Shown: one piece after another, positions 17 through 26,885 of the stretch
How positions within the stretch are numbered: position 1 is the stretch's first letter
Layout of the letters: each line of letters begins with the position of its first letter
Source: a virus
DNA length: 27,364 bases
Virus record (IMG/VR): IMGVR_UViG_3300031951_001001
Location: 1 to 27,364 of that record
Strand: one strand, 5' to 3'
Notes under the pieces: generated by a model
Seen by the model: the letters and a program-made list of their open reading frames with translations, nothing else
Told to the model about the DNA's origin: nothing
Databases searched by the model: none
Program-made: the position numbers and the translations under genes

Positions 17-93
17 GCGCAGTAGCTCAAAGGAAGAGACACCCACGCTATCTAGTGGGAGGTTCCAGGGTTCGACTCCCAGGCTGCGCTCCA
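17..93 (+). tRNA. tRNA with unusual 8-nt anticodon loop
   Basis: A cloverleaf can be folded. The acceptor stem pairs 17-23 with 83-89, the last pair being T-G. The D stem is short (26-28 with 36-38). The anticodon stem CCCAC/GTGGG pairs 42-46 with 55-59. The T arm has a TTCGACT loop and one A-A mismatch. CCA is encoded at 91-93. The anticodon loop, GCTATCTA (47-54), has eight bases instead of seven, so the anticodon cannot be assigned safely (ATC, TAT and CTA readings are all possible). It is followed one base later by a tRNA-Thr gene. It may be functional with an expanded loop or a decaying gene. Confidence 0.7.
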
Positions 94-175: not shown

Positions 176-251
176 GGTCCCATAGCTCATTTGTGCAATG
201 ATGTCTTGTCATGAAGGACGTTTTGTTGAAGGCTATTAACCCAAGGGGCTA
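176..251 (+). tRNA. tRNA-Met (CAT)-like gene, probably degenerate
   Basis: The acceptor strand GGTCCC (176-181) can pair with GGGGCT (245-250). An anticodon arm GTCTT-loop-AGGAC carries loop GTCATGA, giving anticodon CAT. The T arm is abnormal: the 5' strand TTG-AA-GG matches CCCAA only with a two-base bulge, and the T loop lacks the TTCRA consensus. CCA is not encoded. Its position directly after two better tRNA genes supports a tRNA origin, but it may be a pseudo-tRNA. Confidence 0.5.
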
Positions 252-339
252 CATCTAACAAGCGCCCCTAATTTCAACCATCCACGTTCCGTAGGTCCGG
301 TCAACCTAAACAGTAAGAGAGAAGAGAGAGACAAAGACC

Positions 340-993
340 GTGACAACGATAGTGGGAATACAGGGAGACAACTTCGCAATTGTCTGCACCGACTCAAGGA
401 TAGCCAGCGACGGGGGAAGCGGAACACTTACCACCCTCGGACAAGGAATGTCCAAAATAACCCAGAACGGACCATACCTACTGGGAGCCGCTGGAGATGT
501 ACGAGCAATCAATATCTTGCATCACGTCTTTGCCCCACCTACTCCTCCAGCCAATCTACGCGGAAAGAAACTAGACGCCTTCATCACAGCCAGATTCATA
601 CCAGCTCTACGGGAATGCCTAGAGAAGCAAGGATACGGCTACTTCGATAAAGACTCCTATTACACAGCCGGCTTCGACTCAGTCATCATCGCAGTAATTC
701 ACTCAACTATTTACATCATTGATGGTGACTACTCATGGGCATCAGACTCAAACGGAATCTACTCAATCGGCTCAGGAGCAGACTACGCAATAGGAGCAAT
801 GAACGCACTCCTACCAAAAAGCAAACTCTCCATACACAACGCAAAAAACATCTGCCTAAAAGCACTCGCAACAGCTAGCAAATATGATTCAGGTACAGGA
901 GCCCCATACCACACGTTCATACAAGAAAGCCTGCCACTAAGAAGCAAAACAAACAATACCCCCACAAAAGTAGCAGTAAAGAAAAAGAGATAA
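340..993 (+). CDS. Proteasome beta-subunit-like Ntn-hydrolase
   Basis: This 217-aa protein starts with GTG behind a purine-rich RBS (about 319-330). The N-terminus is M-TTIVGI. If Met is removed, Thr2 becomes the N-terminal nucleophile, as in HslV and proteasome beta subunits. A CTDSR segment places Asp18 at the usual catalytic Asp position, followed by MSKIT, whose Lys39 could be the catalytic lysine. GAAGD (about 50-54) and IGSGADYAIGAMNA (about 147-160) match the family's conserved glycine strands. The tail (about 200-217) is Lys/Arg rich. It is shorter than actinobacterial PrcB and has no propeptide, which is closer to HslV. A whiB gene starts 3 nt downstream. It may be a phage protease that complements or competes with the host proteasome; activity is inferred. 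Confidence 0.75.
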   Translation: MTTIVGIQGDNFAIVCTDSRIASDGGSGTLTTLGQGMSKITQNGPYLLGAAGDVRAINILHHVFAPPTPPANLRGKKLDAFITARFIPALRECLEKQGYGYFDKDSYYTAGFDSVIIAVIHSTIYIIDGDYSWASDSNGIYSIGSGADYAIGAMNALLPKSKLSIHNAKNICLKALATASKYDSGTGAPYHTFIQESLPLRSKTNNTPTKVAVKKKR

Positions 994-8199: not shown

Positions 8200-9747
8200 T
8201 CAGCGTAGGACGAGTTCCTGTCCTGTTTTGTATTTGTAAGCCGTAGCGAGTTGGTCGGGAACAACGCTCGTCACCTTCTCACGGGCTTTCAGTTTTTTCA
8301 GTAGTTTGATAGCCGTAGGTGCGTCAGGCACGACATAGACACCGTGTTGCTTACACAACTTGATACAGTCCATAGCCAAGTCATCATCAAATGCGTCACG
8401 CTTGCCAGTCACACCCCCGTCCGATACCCAAATGACGGGCGAGTTCGGGCGTTGGCGTTGCTTGATAGCCCAACGGAGTGCTTCGCCGTCCACCTCGTTG
8501 CTTCCGTGTGGGCGTGGCAACTTGGAACACATACGACCCTTGTTGGCGATTACCCACAAGTTCGGCTTTGGCTTGTACGCACCACCCGAATACATGGCTA
8601 CGAGTGCGCTCGGTGCGTTCAGCACCATTTCGCTCACCTCTTGCTCGGAGAGAGACATAGAGCCACTCGTGTCAATGAGTACGACACCACCAGCACCTTT
8701 CACCGAACGGTCAAAGATACGGCGTTCAGGGTCGGAGAGCAAGCGAGAGATACGGCGTGGATTTTTGCCTGTCTGACTTGCTACCTTTTTGCGTCCGATA
8801 GCACCCATTACAGACTTGTCCAACATTGGCTTGGCAACACGGAGTTCGCCCCACAAGTCGCCAACGCCTTTCTTGGGTATGTTTCCACGACCCCACTCAC
8901 TTTGTTCACGCTCGTTCTTGCCTGTCTCCTCAATGCTTTCCATGAGTTTTTTCAGGCGTTCTGCGTCACTCTTTGACTTGCCTTCGCCCTCAACGCCTTC
9001 ACCGTTATCGCCTTCGGGCTTGCTCTCTTGGTGAGCGTCCACGAGTGTCTCCACCCACTTCGCAAGTTTTTCGGTGTACCCGAAACCATTTTGCTGTGCC
9101 TTCGCACCTGTGGCGTGAAGTGGTGTCGGCTTGCGCCAACGATTTTCCTCGTTCTTGCCCTGAGCAATAATGTTGTCCAAGAACGCACACGCTTCATCTG
9201 TGAACTTTGTGAGTGCTTGCGTCCATTGTGGGGCGAGTTCTGTAATGCCGTCAATGAAGTCAGACCAGTCACCTGTACGGCGATAAGCCATAGCCGTCAT
9301 TACGGCGTTCGGGAAGTCATTGTGTTTGGCGAGTGTCTCACCAACGAAACGACCTTGACCTGATTTCAGGTGTGTCTCAGGGTCAAACCCTGCCTCTTTC
9401 ATCAGAGTATTCACACGGAGTTCCTCACACACGACAAGAGTACGGTCTTTTGCGAAACCACGCTTGCGCCATGTCTTTTCCATTTGCGTTCCTGTTGGCG
9501 AGATTTTCGCATGGAACATCTCGTGCGCTCGTATGTGACGAGAAAGTTCATCATCATAGAGTGGTGCGAGCATGGCACGACTGCCGACATTGGTGGCAGG
9601 GATACCTGCGACTGCCTCGCACCCACGCACTTCCCAACGCCCGTAGTCAATGTCGTCACGGGTGAGAAACTCAGGTTCGGGAACGACAAGAGTGGGGGTC
9701 GTAACCCCCACTAACTCGCCGTCAGTAGTTTCTACTGAGCGTGACAT
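8200..9747 (-). CDS. Putative metallopeptidase with C-terminal VWA domain
   Basis: This is a 515-aa protein. The N-terminal region contains HEMFH (75-79), a HExxH zinc site, followed by VVCEELRVNTL (about 105-115), which could supply a third glutamate ligand. The linker (about 240-290) is rich in Gly, Glu and Lys. Residues 353-445 form a von Willebrand A domain with MIDAS residues DTSGS (359-363) and WVSDGG (440-445). The layout resembles DUF2201-type proteins and the VWA partners of MoxR ATPases (ViaA, CobT, NorD). It is coupled to the AAA+ gene by a TGATG overlap. It probably acts as one complex with that ATPase; substrates are unknown. Confidence 0.82.
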   Translation of the reverse strand: MSRSVETTDGELVGVTTPTLVVPEPEFLTRDDIDYGRWEVRGCEAVAGIPATNVGSRAMLAPLYDDELSRHIRAHEMFHAKISPTGTQMEKTWRKRGFAKDRTLVVCEELRVNTLMKEAGFDPETHLKSGQGRFVGETLAKHNDFPNAVMTAMAYRRTGDWSDFIDGITELAPQWTQALTKFTDEACAFLDNIIAQGKNEENRWRKPTPLHATGAKAQQNGFGYTEKLAKWVETLVDAHQESKPEGDNGEGVEGEGKSKSDAERLKKLMESIEETGKNEREQSEWGRGNIPKKGVGDLWGELRVAKPMLDKSVMGAIGRKKVASQTGKNPRRISRLLSDPERRIFDRSVKGAGGVVLIDTSGSMSLSEQEVSEMVLNAPSALVAMYSGGAYKPKPNLWVIANKGRMCSKLPRPHGSNEVDGEALRWAIKQRQRPNSPVIWVSDGGVTGKRDAFDDDLAMDCIKLCKQHGVYVVPDAPTAIKLLKKLKAREKVTSVVPDQLATAYKYKTGQELVLR

Positions 9748-10547
9748 CAGGCTTCCTGTTCTGCGAGAGCCTGTGCGATTTCTGCCAACTTGCCGTCCGT
9801 GTCGCTGACTGGCTTCACCTTGTCAATGGCAATAGCGTCCAAGATAGACTTGGCTCGCTTGCCAAAGACCATTTCGGCAGAACGCTTCGCACCAACAGAC
9901 GAGCGCAACTTGTCAAATGCCATGAACGAGCGCAACGAGATACGGCGTTCACCTGCGTCACACATCTGACGGGCGTAGTCACGCAAGTCAGGCGACAAAC
10001 GCAAGAGAGCGTTCGGGTGTGGCTCGTTGATACGGATACAGACGGGGAAACGGTCTTTGAGAGCCATTGGGAGTTCGTTCATGTCCTCAATGTTCGTGGT
10101 CATTACAACCGTGAAGCCGTCCAAAGGCTTGACGATTTCTTTCGTGGCAGGGTGTTCCCATTGTGCGCTGTCAGGGGTGTCTGTGATAGCGAGAAGCGTG
10201 GCGAACACATCTCCACCAGCCTTGTCTATCTCGTCAATGACAAGACGACCACCAGTTGAGCCGTTGCCTTTCCATGCTCGGATACCTGCGCCTTCCAACC
10301 ATGACCACGAGCCGTTCGCTGACGGTTGCCAGCAACCAGTCACATCTGCGTTTGTCATGTCGTCCGTACAAATGAGACGGTACGCACCACCTTCGGTATT
10401 TCCGTAGTTCAGACCTGCGTAGGTCTTGCCGATACCTGCCGTACCGAATAGAACGATACGGTCAATGCCAGCGTCCAATGCGTCTTTCACATCTTGCCAG
10501 CACTTCGGGAGTTCCCCTTGTGTTTTCTTTTTCGTGGCTGTTGCCAT
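9747..10547 (-). CDS. MoxR/CobS-like AAA+ ATPase
   Basis: This 266-aa protein has Walker A GTAGIGKT at 35-42, Walker B RLVIDEIDKA at 101-110, a sensor-1 region VVMTTN at 147-152 and a candidate arginine finger in LKDRFP near 166. The order and spacing fit the AAA_5/MoxR branch. These ATPases work with VWA proteins to remodel or load metals into target complexes, and the next gene is exactly such a VWA protein, joined by a one-base stop/start overlap. The start ATG 10547 is preceded by GAAGGAAG and the shared ACCTACTAA leader. Confidence 0.9.
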   Translation of the reverse strand: MATATKKKTQGELPKCWQDVKDALDAGIDRIVLFGTAGIGKTYAGLNYGNTEGGAYRLICTDDMTNADVTGCWQPSANGSWSWLEGAGIRAWKGNGSTGGRLVIDEIDKAGGDVFATLLAITDTPDSAQWEHPATKEIVKPLDGFTVVMTTNIEDMNELPMALKDRFPVCIRINEPHPNALLRLSPDLRDYARQMCDAGERRISLRSFMAFDKLRSSVGAKRSAEMVFGKRAKSILDAIAIDKVKPVSDTDGKLAEIAQALAEQEA

Positions 10548-22382: not shown

Positions 22383-22815
22383 GAAAGCTGCGCCGCAACG
22401 CGCTGTTTTAGAAATCTCCCGTACGGGTGGCTGGGGCAAAGTCGTATATGCCCATCGGCTAGAGTGCCGGCATACCGAGTATCGCAAGAGAGCGCTCACG
22501 ACCAAAAAGATTGCTTGCACTCTTTGTGCAAAGGCAGAAGTCGCCGAGCAGATGGTTAGGGAGTTGATTGCATCTGGTCCAGCTGAGTACGCAGAGCCGG
22601 TATGGACAGACGAAATGTTCTCCGACATCGCAACACTGGAAACAGATATAGGCAATCTGCGCGCATCGATGGCCTCTGCGTTACAAGTCAGCGCTGATGC
22701 CGTTGACGTTGTTTCTACTCAAACAGACGAGGGAATGGCAATATCGTACGTGGTTGTGTTCTTTGATGCCGAGCAGGCAGGCAGAATCGCAAGGGGCTCA
22801 CTCGGGCCCGAGTAA
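22369..22815 (+). CDS. Protein of unknown function with Cys/His group
   Basis: This 148-aa protein starts at ATG 22369, within the end of the previous gene. ECRHTEYRKR and IACTLCAKAE (about 26-52) contain Cys, His and a CxxC that could bind zinc. The C-terminal half is acidic and helical, ending in a strand-rich ISYVVVFFDAEQAG. Its 3' end overlaps the convergent PAPS-reductase-like gene by 18 nt. The start in the longer frame (22273) is rejected because it is a frame shadow of the upstream gene. Confidence 0.6.
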   Translation: MEINKKAAPQRAVLEISRTGGWGKVVYAHRLECRHTEYRKRALTTKKIACTLCAKAEVAEQMVRELIASGPAEYAEPVWTDEMFSDIATLETDIGNLRASMASALQVSADAVDVVSTQTDEGMAISYVVVFFDAEQAGRIARGSLGPE

Positions 22816-23928
22816 ATCCTGTTCTTGCTGGATTGTGTATGCGCGCGTTCCTGGTCCGATTGGATTAACCGAAGTGATGTTGATTTCGTGGATGAGCAGA
22901 TTGCGAATCAACCAGTGAAGAGGGTATGAACGCGGGTCTTTAACATGTTTTTTGCGGAACTCTGCGCAGTAAGCCCGTGCACGAGTTTTGAGGCCTGGAG
23001 TAGCCATATTGTCCTCAATGCATCGCTTGACTCCATCCCACCCGTCTTGCGCATATTGCATGATTTGTTTTTCAAGGTCAAACTCAGTCCATAGCCGGCG
23101 TTGAGCGTCGATATGTGGGAAGCATTCGTATAGGCGGTCGTAGAACTCTGGCTCAGTTGCGATGACATCACCAATACGTCGAATGGCGACAGCATGGAGA
23201 GGAATACCAACCCGTGTATTGCTGCCCGTAAGTGCGGCAAGGTCGTAATACTTGCAGTACTCTGCTCCGTGTTCTTCCGAGATGAACTTCAGCACGTCGT
23301 CTGTTGTCCAGTCGTAGATAACTTTGGCGAACCGCAACGGAATATTCTTTTTCATGCGGAAAGGAATAACAATGTAATTCTCATGTAGCTTCTGCACGCA
23401 AGAGCGATAACGAATCATCGACTCGTTTGCACGAACACCGGTGATGAACGCGACACGGCCTTTTTTCCCTTGCATTGTGTAGTAGTCGACCGATTCAGGT
23501 ATTGATTTTGATGGGTCTAATCCGAAATGTTCAGCACGGATTGCCCACGACGGCATTGGTCGTATGAGTCGGTCGTTCTCTTCGCGGAACTTGGACCAAA
23601 GCAGACAATACTCACGCCGGCCAAGAACCCAAACCTCAGCGCCGTATGGAAGGCAATACCATTCCATGTCAACCCAGTCGTAGTTGCGAACTTTTTCTAC
23701 GAACTCGATGACGGCAGGGCTAACCATCTCTTCATCACGGAAGATGACTTTGACTGGCCCTAGTCCGCGCTCTTCATGAATCTCTTTTGCAAGATAAAGA
23801 ACAGCGGTTGAGTCTTTACCGCCTGAGAACTGGACACAAACAGTGTCGAATGTGTCATAGACATGACGCATTCTTTCACGTGCAGCATCGACGCAGTTCA
23901 TATCGAGAAAGAGACGCTGACGTGTCAA
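22798..23928 (-). CDS. PAPS-reductase-like PP-loop ATPase (IbrA-like)
   Basis: This 376-aa protein has the PP-loop SGGKDS (35-40) after VCVQF. VKVIFRDEEMVSP follows, and YLAKEIHEERG matches the adenylate-binding core of PAPS-reductase-family enzymes. It also has KGRVAFITGVRANESMIRYR (about 157-176), typical of the DndC/IbrA-like branch. The C-terminal 100 residues contain a helical YPLHWLIRNLL segment. No ParB-like IbrB partner, dnd or ssp genes are seen nearby. It may modify nucleic acid or a cofactor by adenylation or sulfur transfer; the actual reaction is unknown. It overlaps the next gene upstream by 4 nt. Confidence 0.85.
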   Translation of the reverse strand: MTRQRLFLDMNCVDAARERMRHVYDTFDTVCVQFSGGKDSTAVLYLAKEIHEERGLGPVKVIFRDEEMVSPAVIEFVEKVRNYDWVDMEWYCLPYGAEVWVLGRREYCLLWSKFREENDRLIRPMPSWAIRAEHFGLDPSKSIPESVDYYTMQGKKGRVAFITGVRANESMIRYRSCVQKLHENYIVIPFRMKKNIPLRFAKVIYDWTTDDVLKFISEEHGAEYCKYYDLAALTGSNTRVGIPLHAVAIRRIGDVIATEPEFYDRLYECFPHIDAQRRLWTEFDLEKQIMQYAQDGWDGVKRCIEDNMATPGLKTRARAYCAEFRKKHVKDPRSYPLHWLIRNLLIHEINITSVNPIGPGTRAYTIQQEQDLLGPE

Positions 23929-24119
23929 ATGCGATTCTCCAAATCATTTACACGGGCAGTAAGTTCGTTCATAAATTCTGCCGTTAGAACTGAGCCATAC
24001 TCAAGTTCTGGAATTGGTTCCTTTTTGTCGCGTGCAAAGTCCATAATTGCTTTGGTGGCAAATAACGGTGCGGCTGCAGCAAGAATCGAGCCCTTTGAAA
24101 GGAAGTTGCGTCGGTTCAT
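23925..24119 (-). CDS. Small protein with twin-arginine signal
   Basis: This 64-aa protein uses ATG 24119, which overlaps the upstream stop (ATGA). It begins MNRRNFLSKGSILAAAAPLF, matching the Tat pattern RRxFL followed by a hydrophobic stretch and ATKA as a possible cleavage region. The remainder (about 28-64) is a helical NELTARVNDLENRI end. Tat signals are rare on phage proteins and suggest export of a folded small protein. It lies between the UV-repair and PP-loop genes. Confidence 0.65.
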   Translation of the reverse strand: MNRRNFLSKGSILAAAAPLFATKAIMDFARDKKEPIPELEYGSVLTAEFMNELTARVNDLENRI

Positions 24120-24538
24120 GATGCAACAATAGGCCAAACGTATTCAGCGGCAGGGTTATCTACCCAGCCGAATTGCGAATAGTGTTCAGGGAACTTGCGA
24201 AGCAGGTTTGAACGGTGGCTTGAGTGCACGCGGTCGTCTCCCCACCATGATGGTAAGTCTGTGTCGTCTGCGCAGCCAAGAGCAGAAATCTTTTCGCGGC
24301 ACGTGTCTTTGTATCCAAGAGCAATCCATGCATCGCACATCGCGATACCATAGGCAATCAACCCGCTCTCATGACCAGCCCACATCTTTGTAGCTGGATG
24401 ATTCTTCCAACCCGCTTTACCGAGACCGGTGAGTGAGTTGAGAATTTGCAATGTCTCGACACGTTGTTTGCCTAAACGGCGATAGTCAAGAACGTTTGCG
24501 CTTTGATGGAAGTCTGGATACGGAACGAATGTTTGCAT
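24116..24538 (-). CDS. Pyrimidine-dimer DNA glycosylase
   Basis: This 140-aa protein matches the Pyr_excise family (MSMEG_6728-type, related in function to T4 DenV). Motifs are MQTFVPYPDFHQSANVLDYR, RLGKQRVETLQIL, then NHPATKMWAGHESGLIAYG and a C-terminal EHYSQFGWVDNPAAEYVWP. Such enzymes cleave UV-induced pyrimidine dimers, protecting phage DNA. It heads a three-gene minus-strand run (24538-22798) joined by 4-nt overlaps. It is divergent from gene 24568, and its start region contains that gene's -35. Confidence 0.85.
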   Translation of the reverse strand: MQTFVPYPDFHQSANVLDYRRLGKQRVETLQILNSLTGLGKAGWKNHPATKMWAGHESGLIAYGIAMCDAWIALGYKDTCREKISALGCADDTDLPSWWGDDRVHSSHRSNLLRKFPEHYSQFGWVDNPAAEYVWPIVAS

Positions 24539-26505: not shown

Positions 26506-26534
26506 TTGCATTCTGTTCTCGGTCCTTGTATCTT
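26506..26534 (+). promoter_or_regulatory. Leaderless promoter of the second whiB
   Basis: TTGCAT, 17 bp, TATCTT; ATG 26541 follows after 6 nt. Confidence 0.8.
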
Positions 26535-26540
26535 GATTGC

Positions 26541-26885
26541 ATGAACTCGGGGAACACAAAGAAAAGTAAAGTAAGTCAAGGTAAGCTGGATGTATATTCC
26601 GAATTAGAGCTGTTCTTTCCGAAAATCCCTGTTCCGGATTTTCGTGGTGACTGCAAAGGAATGCCAACTGACTGGTGGTTCCCGGAACACGCCCCATCGG
26701 GTAACGAAAACGAAAAGTATGAAAGCGCGCGAGCTATCTGCGCTGGGTGCGCGGTTAAGAGTGAATGTTTGGATTTCGCCATCTCGTTTCCGAACTTGCA
26801 GGGAATGTGGGGAGGAATGTCTCCACGGCAACGAGTTGCAGAACGTCGCCGACGCTACCGAGCAAGCTTGCGAGTTAAGAAGTAA
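26541..26885 (+). CDS. WhiB-family transcriptional regulator (second copy)
   Basis: This 114-aa protein has Fe-S ligands Cys38, then Cys67-x2-Cys70-x5-Cys76. The turn GMWGGM and a basic tail (RQRVAERRRRYRASLRVKK) follow. It has a longer N-terminal extension than the copy at 996 and shares little outside the core, so the two are not a recent duplication. The start is fixed by the leaderless promoter. The stop overlaps the primase start (TAATG), so the two are co-translated. Confidence 0.93.
   Translation: MNSGNTKKSKVSQGKLDVYSELELFFPKIPVPDFRGDCKGMPTDWWFPEHAPSGNENEKYESARAICAGCAVKSECLDFAISFPNLQGMWGGMSPRQRVAERRRRYRASLRVKK

Follow-up and report, generated by a model that had tools for sequence, protein, structure and literature searches.

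The window, which is the whole 27,364-base stretch of an IMG/VR virus record, encodes a proteasome/HslV-family Ntn hydrolase (positions 340-993, + strand; 217 amino acids, GTG start), identified through profiles, a predicted model and fold searches. The gene lies downstream of a tRNA-Thr(tgt) (95-169, +), detected by ARAGORN and scoring 70.2 bits with Rfam, and is followed by a gene for a WhiB-like regulator (996-1316, +; Pfam Whib, 1.2e-14) that starts 2 bases past the hydrolase stop codon. Since an M-T-T start is common to all relatives in the alignment, the start site is called correctly; upstream in-frame codons are few and not conserved, and HslV from Escherichia coli likewise starts with a GTG codon followed by TTIV. 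A scan of the hydrolase strand for promoter and terminator signals gave nothing above chance.

Several other features of the window were recorded. A second WhiB gene is present in the same record (26526-26885, +; Pfam Whib, 1.3e-14). A tRNA-like sequence at 17-93 (+) ends in CCA and has a 7-bp acceptor stem and an anticodon loop of 8 bases (GCUAUCUA); it was missed by ARAGORN, scores only 16 bits with the Rfam tRNA model, and is either degenerate or a tRNA of the frameshift type. Between the tRNA-Thr and the hydrolase, positions 176-262 (+) resemble a decayed tRNA, with a fold z-score of only -1.4. On the opposite strand, a gene for an AAA_5 (MoxR/CobS-like) ATPase adjoins one for a 515-residue protein with a DTSGSMS motif (8200-10547, -), comparable to the adjoining genes annotated as an AAA family ATPase and a cobalamin biosynthesis protein in phage DSL-LC01. 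That strand also encodes a PAPS-reductase-domain protein (22798-23928, -) and a pyrimidine dimer DNA glycosylase (24116-24538, -).

The hydrolase matches the Pfam Proteasome family (PF00227) with 31.3 bits (E = 1.9e-7), against a curated cut-off of 22.4 bits, and the same family is matched by all 33 aligned relatives (E ≤ 0.1). A match to PHROG 1040 ('peptidase HslV family'; E = 1.8e-21) spans residues 1-212, and the resemblance as a whole greatly exceeds what chance would give. Assignment as either a PrcB or an HslV equivalog was rejected, as the scores are below the respective cut-offs: 21.2 versus 191.9 bits for the PrcB profile (20S_bact_beta, TIGR03690) and 25.5 versus 157.75 bits for the HslV profile (TIGR03692). 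With the window family itself as the profile, HslV and BPH came up at roughly 1e-5 but PrcB at no better than 0.02, and no PrcB-type N-terminal propeptide is present in the hydrolase (its conserved start being M-T-T). An alphaRep protein (4ZV6) that appeared as the top profile match was an artefact of summed repeats, with no single stretch passing. An anti-phage defence role was rejected, as PADLOC gave no match.

Conservation was assessed in 52 sequences, comprising the query and 51 representatives at 90% identity drawn from 162 loci. Residues M1, T2, T3, D18, K39, G49, G52, D53, G144, G146, D183, T186 and G187 are invariant in all 52. The M-TTIVGI start, Asp18, Lys39 and GSGxxYAxGA strand noted in the preliminary description are all present, the last as GSGADYAIGA at residues 144-153. 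Thr2 (343-345, +), which is predicted to become the N-terminal nucleophile once Met is cleaved off, aligns with Thr1 of HslV and of a plasmid-borne family (vide infra). Asp18 (391-393, +) is the counterpart of Asp17 of the proteasome and BPH, and Lys39 (454-456, +) of Lys33 of the proteasome and Lys37 of BPH; hhalign places Lys39 against the invariant lysine of the Rhizobium/Streptomyces plasmid family. The GAAGD segment (residues 49-53; 484-498, +), an oxyanion-hole segment corresponding to Gly45-Gly48 of HslV, is invariant throughout in alignment A1. Within the GSG motif (residues 144-146; 769-777, +), residue 145 corresponds to Ser129 of the proteasome and Ser139 of BPH, and is always serine (31 of 52) or threonine (21 of 52). 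Asp183 and Thr186 (886-897, +) are, by position, candidate equivalents of proteasome Asp166/Ser169. In mature numbering, with Met removed, the hydrolase set becomes Thr1, Asp17, Lys38 and Ser144, and the catalytic residues of Td-BPH are Thr1, Asp17, Lys37 and Ser139 (PMC5777263).

Lys39 and the oxyanion Gly49 are 10 residues apart, versus 12 in HslV, giving a shorter hairpin turn, and Lys39 sits just before a strand in the AlphaFold model. In a plain MAFFT alignment, Lys33 of E. coli HslV falls two columns away from the hydrolase lysine, so the mapping between the two is drawn from the model and the order of the motifs. The family is clearly under purifying selection: by the Nei-Gojobori method, four pairs gave dN of 0.04-0.32 versus dS of 1.1-1.6 and a fifth was saturated. 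For pairs with computable dS, dN/dS is about 0.03-0.25, a rough ratio because synonymous sites are near saturation.

An AlphaFold2 model, run on an alignment of 33 sequences, is confident, with a pLDDT of 84 and a pTM of 0.80. It contains N-terminal strands at residues 3-8 and 12-17 and helices at 54-63, 75-96, 147-157 and 165-182, and is weakest at the S2/S3 hairpin (21-30), in the loop after helix H2 and in the tail. That loop, a putative pore loop at about residues 98-113 (631-678, +), is long, as also seen in the alignment, and of low confidence (pLDDT 54 at residues 101-110). The Lys-rich C-terminal tail, about residues 201-217 (940-990, +), is predicted to be disordered (pLDDT 44-49) and in the alignment is largely restricted to DSL-LC01 and the clade of the window. 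A Foldseek search of the PDB returned Td-BPH (5OVS) as the best match (E = 2.4e-12, TM 0.79 by target length), with HslV and then proteasome beta chains ranking behind it. Against viral models, many phage proteins were matched, the first of them named HslV and others proteasome subunit beta or Ntn hydrolase. The model and these matches predict an Ntn beta-sandwich flanked by helices. The invariant Lys39 and the predicted fold together argue that the lysine is usable and the fold Ntn, and on sequence and model the protein is a proteasome-family Ntn hydrolase with predicted threonine peptidase activity. The initial reading as a proteasome beta-like Ntn hydrolase, for which structure prediction, fold comparison and a usable lysine had been proposed as checks, is thus borne out by the profile matches, the model, the Foldseek results and the conserved residues; neither outcome named as refuting it arose, the Ntn sandwich being predicted and the lysine invariant.

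In IMG/VR, a scan with the single protein detected 88 relatives, and a profile scan detected at least 452 stretches encoding relatives. One locus (L002) carries an identical copy of the gene (100%) and extends 6 kb further upstream. A close host gene was sought, and the only genome-contig match, in a Gammaproteobacteria MAG, was discarded as probably phage because whiB adjoins the homologue there. The nearest cellular relatives are from Rhizobiales, Paraburkholderia and Streptomyces plasmids. More distant relatives in named isolates include Arthrobacter phage Pitbull gp77 and Microbacterium phage Pumpernickel gp135, both annotated only as 'protease'. These two and DSL-LC01 WJZ48484.1 are members of PHROG 1040 and belong to the same family by profile, with the Thr, Asp, Lys and GxG positions in common, although members of this PHROG are only 27-46% identical to the hydrolase. 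In DSL-LC01, whiB is the next gene downstream, as in the window; compared with Pitbull and Pumpernickel, the S2/S3 hairpin and pore loop of the window family are longer.

Fuchs et al. (2021) reported two kinds of phage proteasome homologues, PPH and AAH (PMC8665760). PPH is likewise a viral member of the proteasome family, but has about 140 residues and is without helix H2 (PMC8665760), whereas proteins of the hydrolase family have about 200-220 residues and retain that helix (75-96). AAH belongs to group I, is compact, is without a propeptide and is found in phages, and its plasmid distribution resembles that of the nearest cellular relatives of the hydrolase (PMC8665760); by this distribution, and not by comparison with the published alignment, we infer that the plasmid proteins are AAH. 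The window family and the Rhizobium/Streptomyces plasmid family align over their full length by hhalign (E = 7.4e-25). However, the plasmid proteins mostly have GCG and FTSSFR where the window family has G[S/T]G and GAAGDVR, and in the tree they form, with two phage proteins, a well-supported branch of their own, apart from the window family. From the distribution of the plasmid relatives, the hhalign match and the separate branch, the window family is AAH-like and falls in group I (the HslV/BPH/AAH side), possibly as a sister branch; long branches make its deep position in the tree uncertain. BPH, the best solved fold match, shares the long pore loop and, as reported, has neither a propeptide nor a known unfoldase (PMC5777263); it differs in being cellular, in having a highly acidic pore loop and in being only 18-20% identical to the hydrolase. 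BPH is a tetradecameric double ring, and the pore loop of the hydrolase fits that of BPH in length. HslV shares the TTIV start, the catalytic set and a similar C-terminal half, but it depends on HslU and its pore loop is short, whereas that of the hydrolase and BPH is long. Rings of HslV and of BPH are homo-oligomeric and work without alpha subunits.

The surroundings of the gene vary. Reading towards the hydrolase in L002, a metallophosphoesterase gene is followed by tRNA-Arg, ThyX, tRNA-Asn, a glycosyltransferase-like ORF and tRNA-Thr; whiB then follows the hydrolase as in the window. A phosphoesterase is found within 2.6 kb upstream of the homologue in 33 of 51 representatives. At some other loci an endolysin-like gene and a small membrane protein gene lie further upstream, and at others an unrelated ORF overlaps the start of the homologue and ThyX is 4 kb upstream; in Pumpernickel, ThyX overlaps the homologue inside a tRNA array. 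The close link to whiB, from which early host takeover had been suggested, is real in the window but partial across the family, as 25 of 45 representatives have whiB no more than 1.5 kb downstream. The takeover role itself finds no backing in gene position, as the homologue follows metallophosphoesterase, ThyX and tRNA genes in L002 and precedes portal and capsid genes elsewhere; this variable neighbourhood gives no clear sign of early expression and no evident early operon. As whiB is a marker of actinobacterial phages in the literature (PMC6802176, PMC10202952), the host of the window phage is probably an actinobacterium. The description of the contigs as mostly freshwater follows the whiB literature and the source of DSL-LC01.

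The reading that we favour, with reasonable though far from complete confidence, is a threonine peptidase of the BPH/AAH kind that assembles its own ring, needs no unfoldase and is auxiliary and non-structural. Cleavage of Met by the methionine aminopeptidase of the host would leave Thr2 as the nucleophile, and Asp18 and Lys39 would complete the triad; judged from sequence and model, the protein is probably a catalytically competent threonine hydrolase. Since the four flanking helices are kept, it most likely self-assembles into a double ring. The long pore loop and the lack of an HslU gene suggest that it may work, like BPH, without a dedicated unfoldase. A search for AAA_2 (HslU-type) proteins in 13 phage records found none over the Pfam cut-off in 12, and in the remaining record (G005) a ClpA/B-like protein far from both of its proteasome homologues; an HslUV-like pair was rejected, as no HslU was found among these 13 records. 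Because G005 carries this AAA+ protein, an unfoldase partner of phage or host origin is possible. During infection the putative ring may cleave proteins of the host or the phage, whether unfolded or specific ones, and its range of substrates would be narrow. A bolder proposal is that these proteins form an undescribed, large, phage-only branch in freshwater actinobacterial phages, whose own unfoldase-independent compartment, a viral proteasome-like machine, removes specific host proteins; we regard this as possible but unlikely.

A rival reading is that the protein is not degradative. Connectase is a protein ligase on the proteasome-family fold (PMC8665760), and this precedent, which shows the fold to be capable of such chemistry, keeps open a connectase-like ligase or another highly specific acyl-transfer enzyme with one phage or host protein as its target. 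Purified BPH is inert on standard peptides and casein, and epoxomicin binds it at Thr1 (PMC5777263); the epoxomicin binding speaks for the peptidase reading, the inertness on general substrates and the existence of non-proteases in the family speak against it, the inertness is in keeping with such an enzyme, and the strong conservation in the family of two non-catalytic segments, GAAGDVRAINILHH and IYIIDGDYSW, fits a specific partner. However, the hallmarks of connectase are absent. Connectase has lost helices H1/H2 and carries a two-helix insertion between S3 and S4; in the hydrolase, helices are predicted at 54-63 and 75-96, there is no insertion, and only 10 residues separate K39 from G49. 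A ligase therefore appears unlikely.

A protease role in capsid assembly, with the scaffold being trimmed or removed, is suggested by two loci (L075 and L007), where the homologue stands immediately ahead of genes for SPP1-type portal, coiled-coil and capsid proteins, and where no S78 protease was found in the records. At most loci, however, the homologue is away from the head genes, and a separate S78 prohead protease was matched in 12 of 24 records (11 over the cut-off), including that of the complete DSL-LC01. Because half of the records carry their own prohead protease, head maturation is disfavoured and quite improbable for the family, and was rejected as a general role, though it may hold for the L075/L007 clade. 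In four records (G001:129700, G003:114140, G004:63979 and G002:65682, the records of L054, L063, L039 and L038) the S78 domain is inside open frames of about 3,000-4,000 amino acids, which points to a giant polyprotein or a fusion of structural proteins. Next to the portal region of DSL-LC01 there is an ORF of 9,870 bases.

Finally, the protein could be a PrcB-like subunit, entering or poisoning the 20S proteasome of the host. This reading draws on the common superfamily and would suit a probably actinobacterial host, but with 21 bits against the 20S_bact_beta cut-off of 191.9, a closer relationship to HslV/BPH and no propeptide, it is very improbable. The earlier suggestion of a phage copy joining, poisoning or replacing the host particle finds no support, given scores far below both equivalog cut-offs, the missing propeptide and nearest folds that are homo-oligomeric with no alpha partner; joining of host PrcA is, on sequence and model, unlikely.

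The peptidase-ring reading concerns a gene that is real but not the first of its kind, as phage relatives are already known and the DSL-LC01 copy is already annotated as HslV. A literature search found no paper on such a gene in actinophages, and neither how large the branch is nor its occurrence in whiB-carrying phages seems to have been reported in the literature searched. Fuchs et al. (2021) could find AAH in no phage specific to actinobacteria (PMC8665760), whereas the present family is widespread in phage contigs, many of them with whiB. With the Arthrobacter and Microbacterium phage isolates, the role of phage proteasome homologues can be tested directly in laboratory strains by deleting the gene. 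Two further records were observed. G005 (267,766 bp) is of jumbo size and contains the two proteasome homologues and the single ClpA/B-like AAA+ protein (L088, 3570-4991; L089, 4097-4705; L090, 4443-5060). On plasmid B of Sinorhizobium americanum (L086, 4902-5447), an AAH-like proteasome homologue annotated as hypothetical lies among nifQ, rpoN, nifS and nifW.
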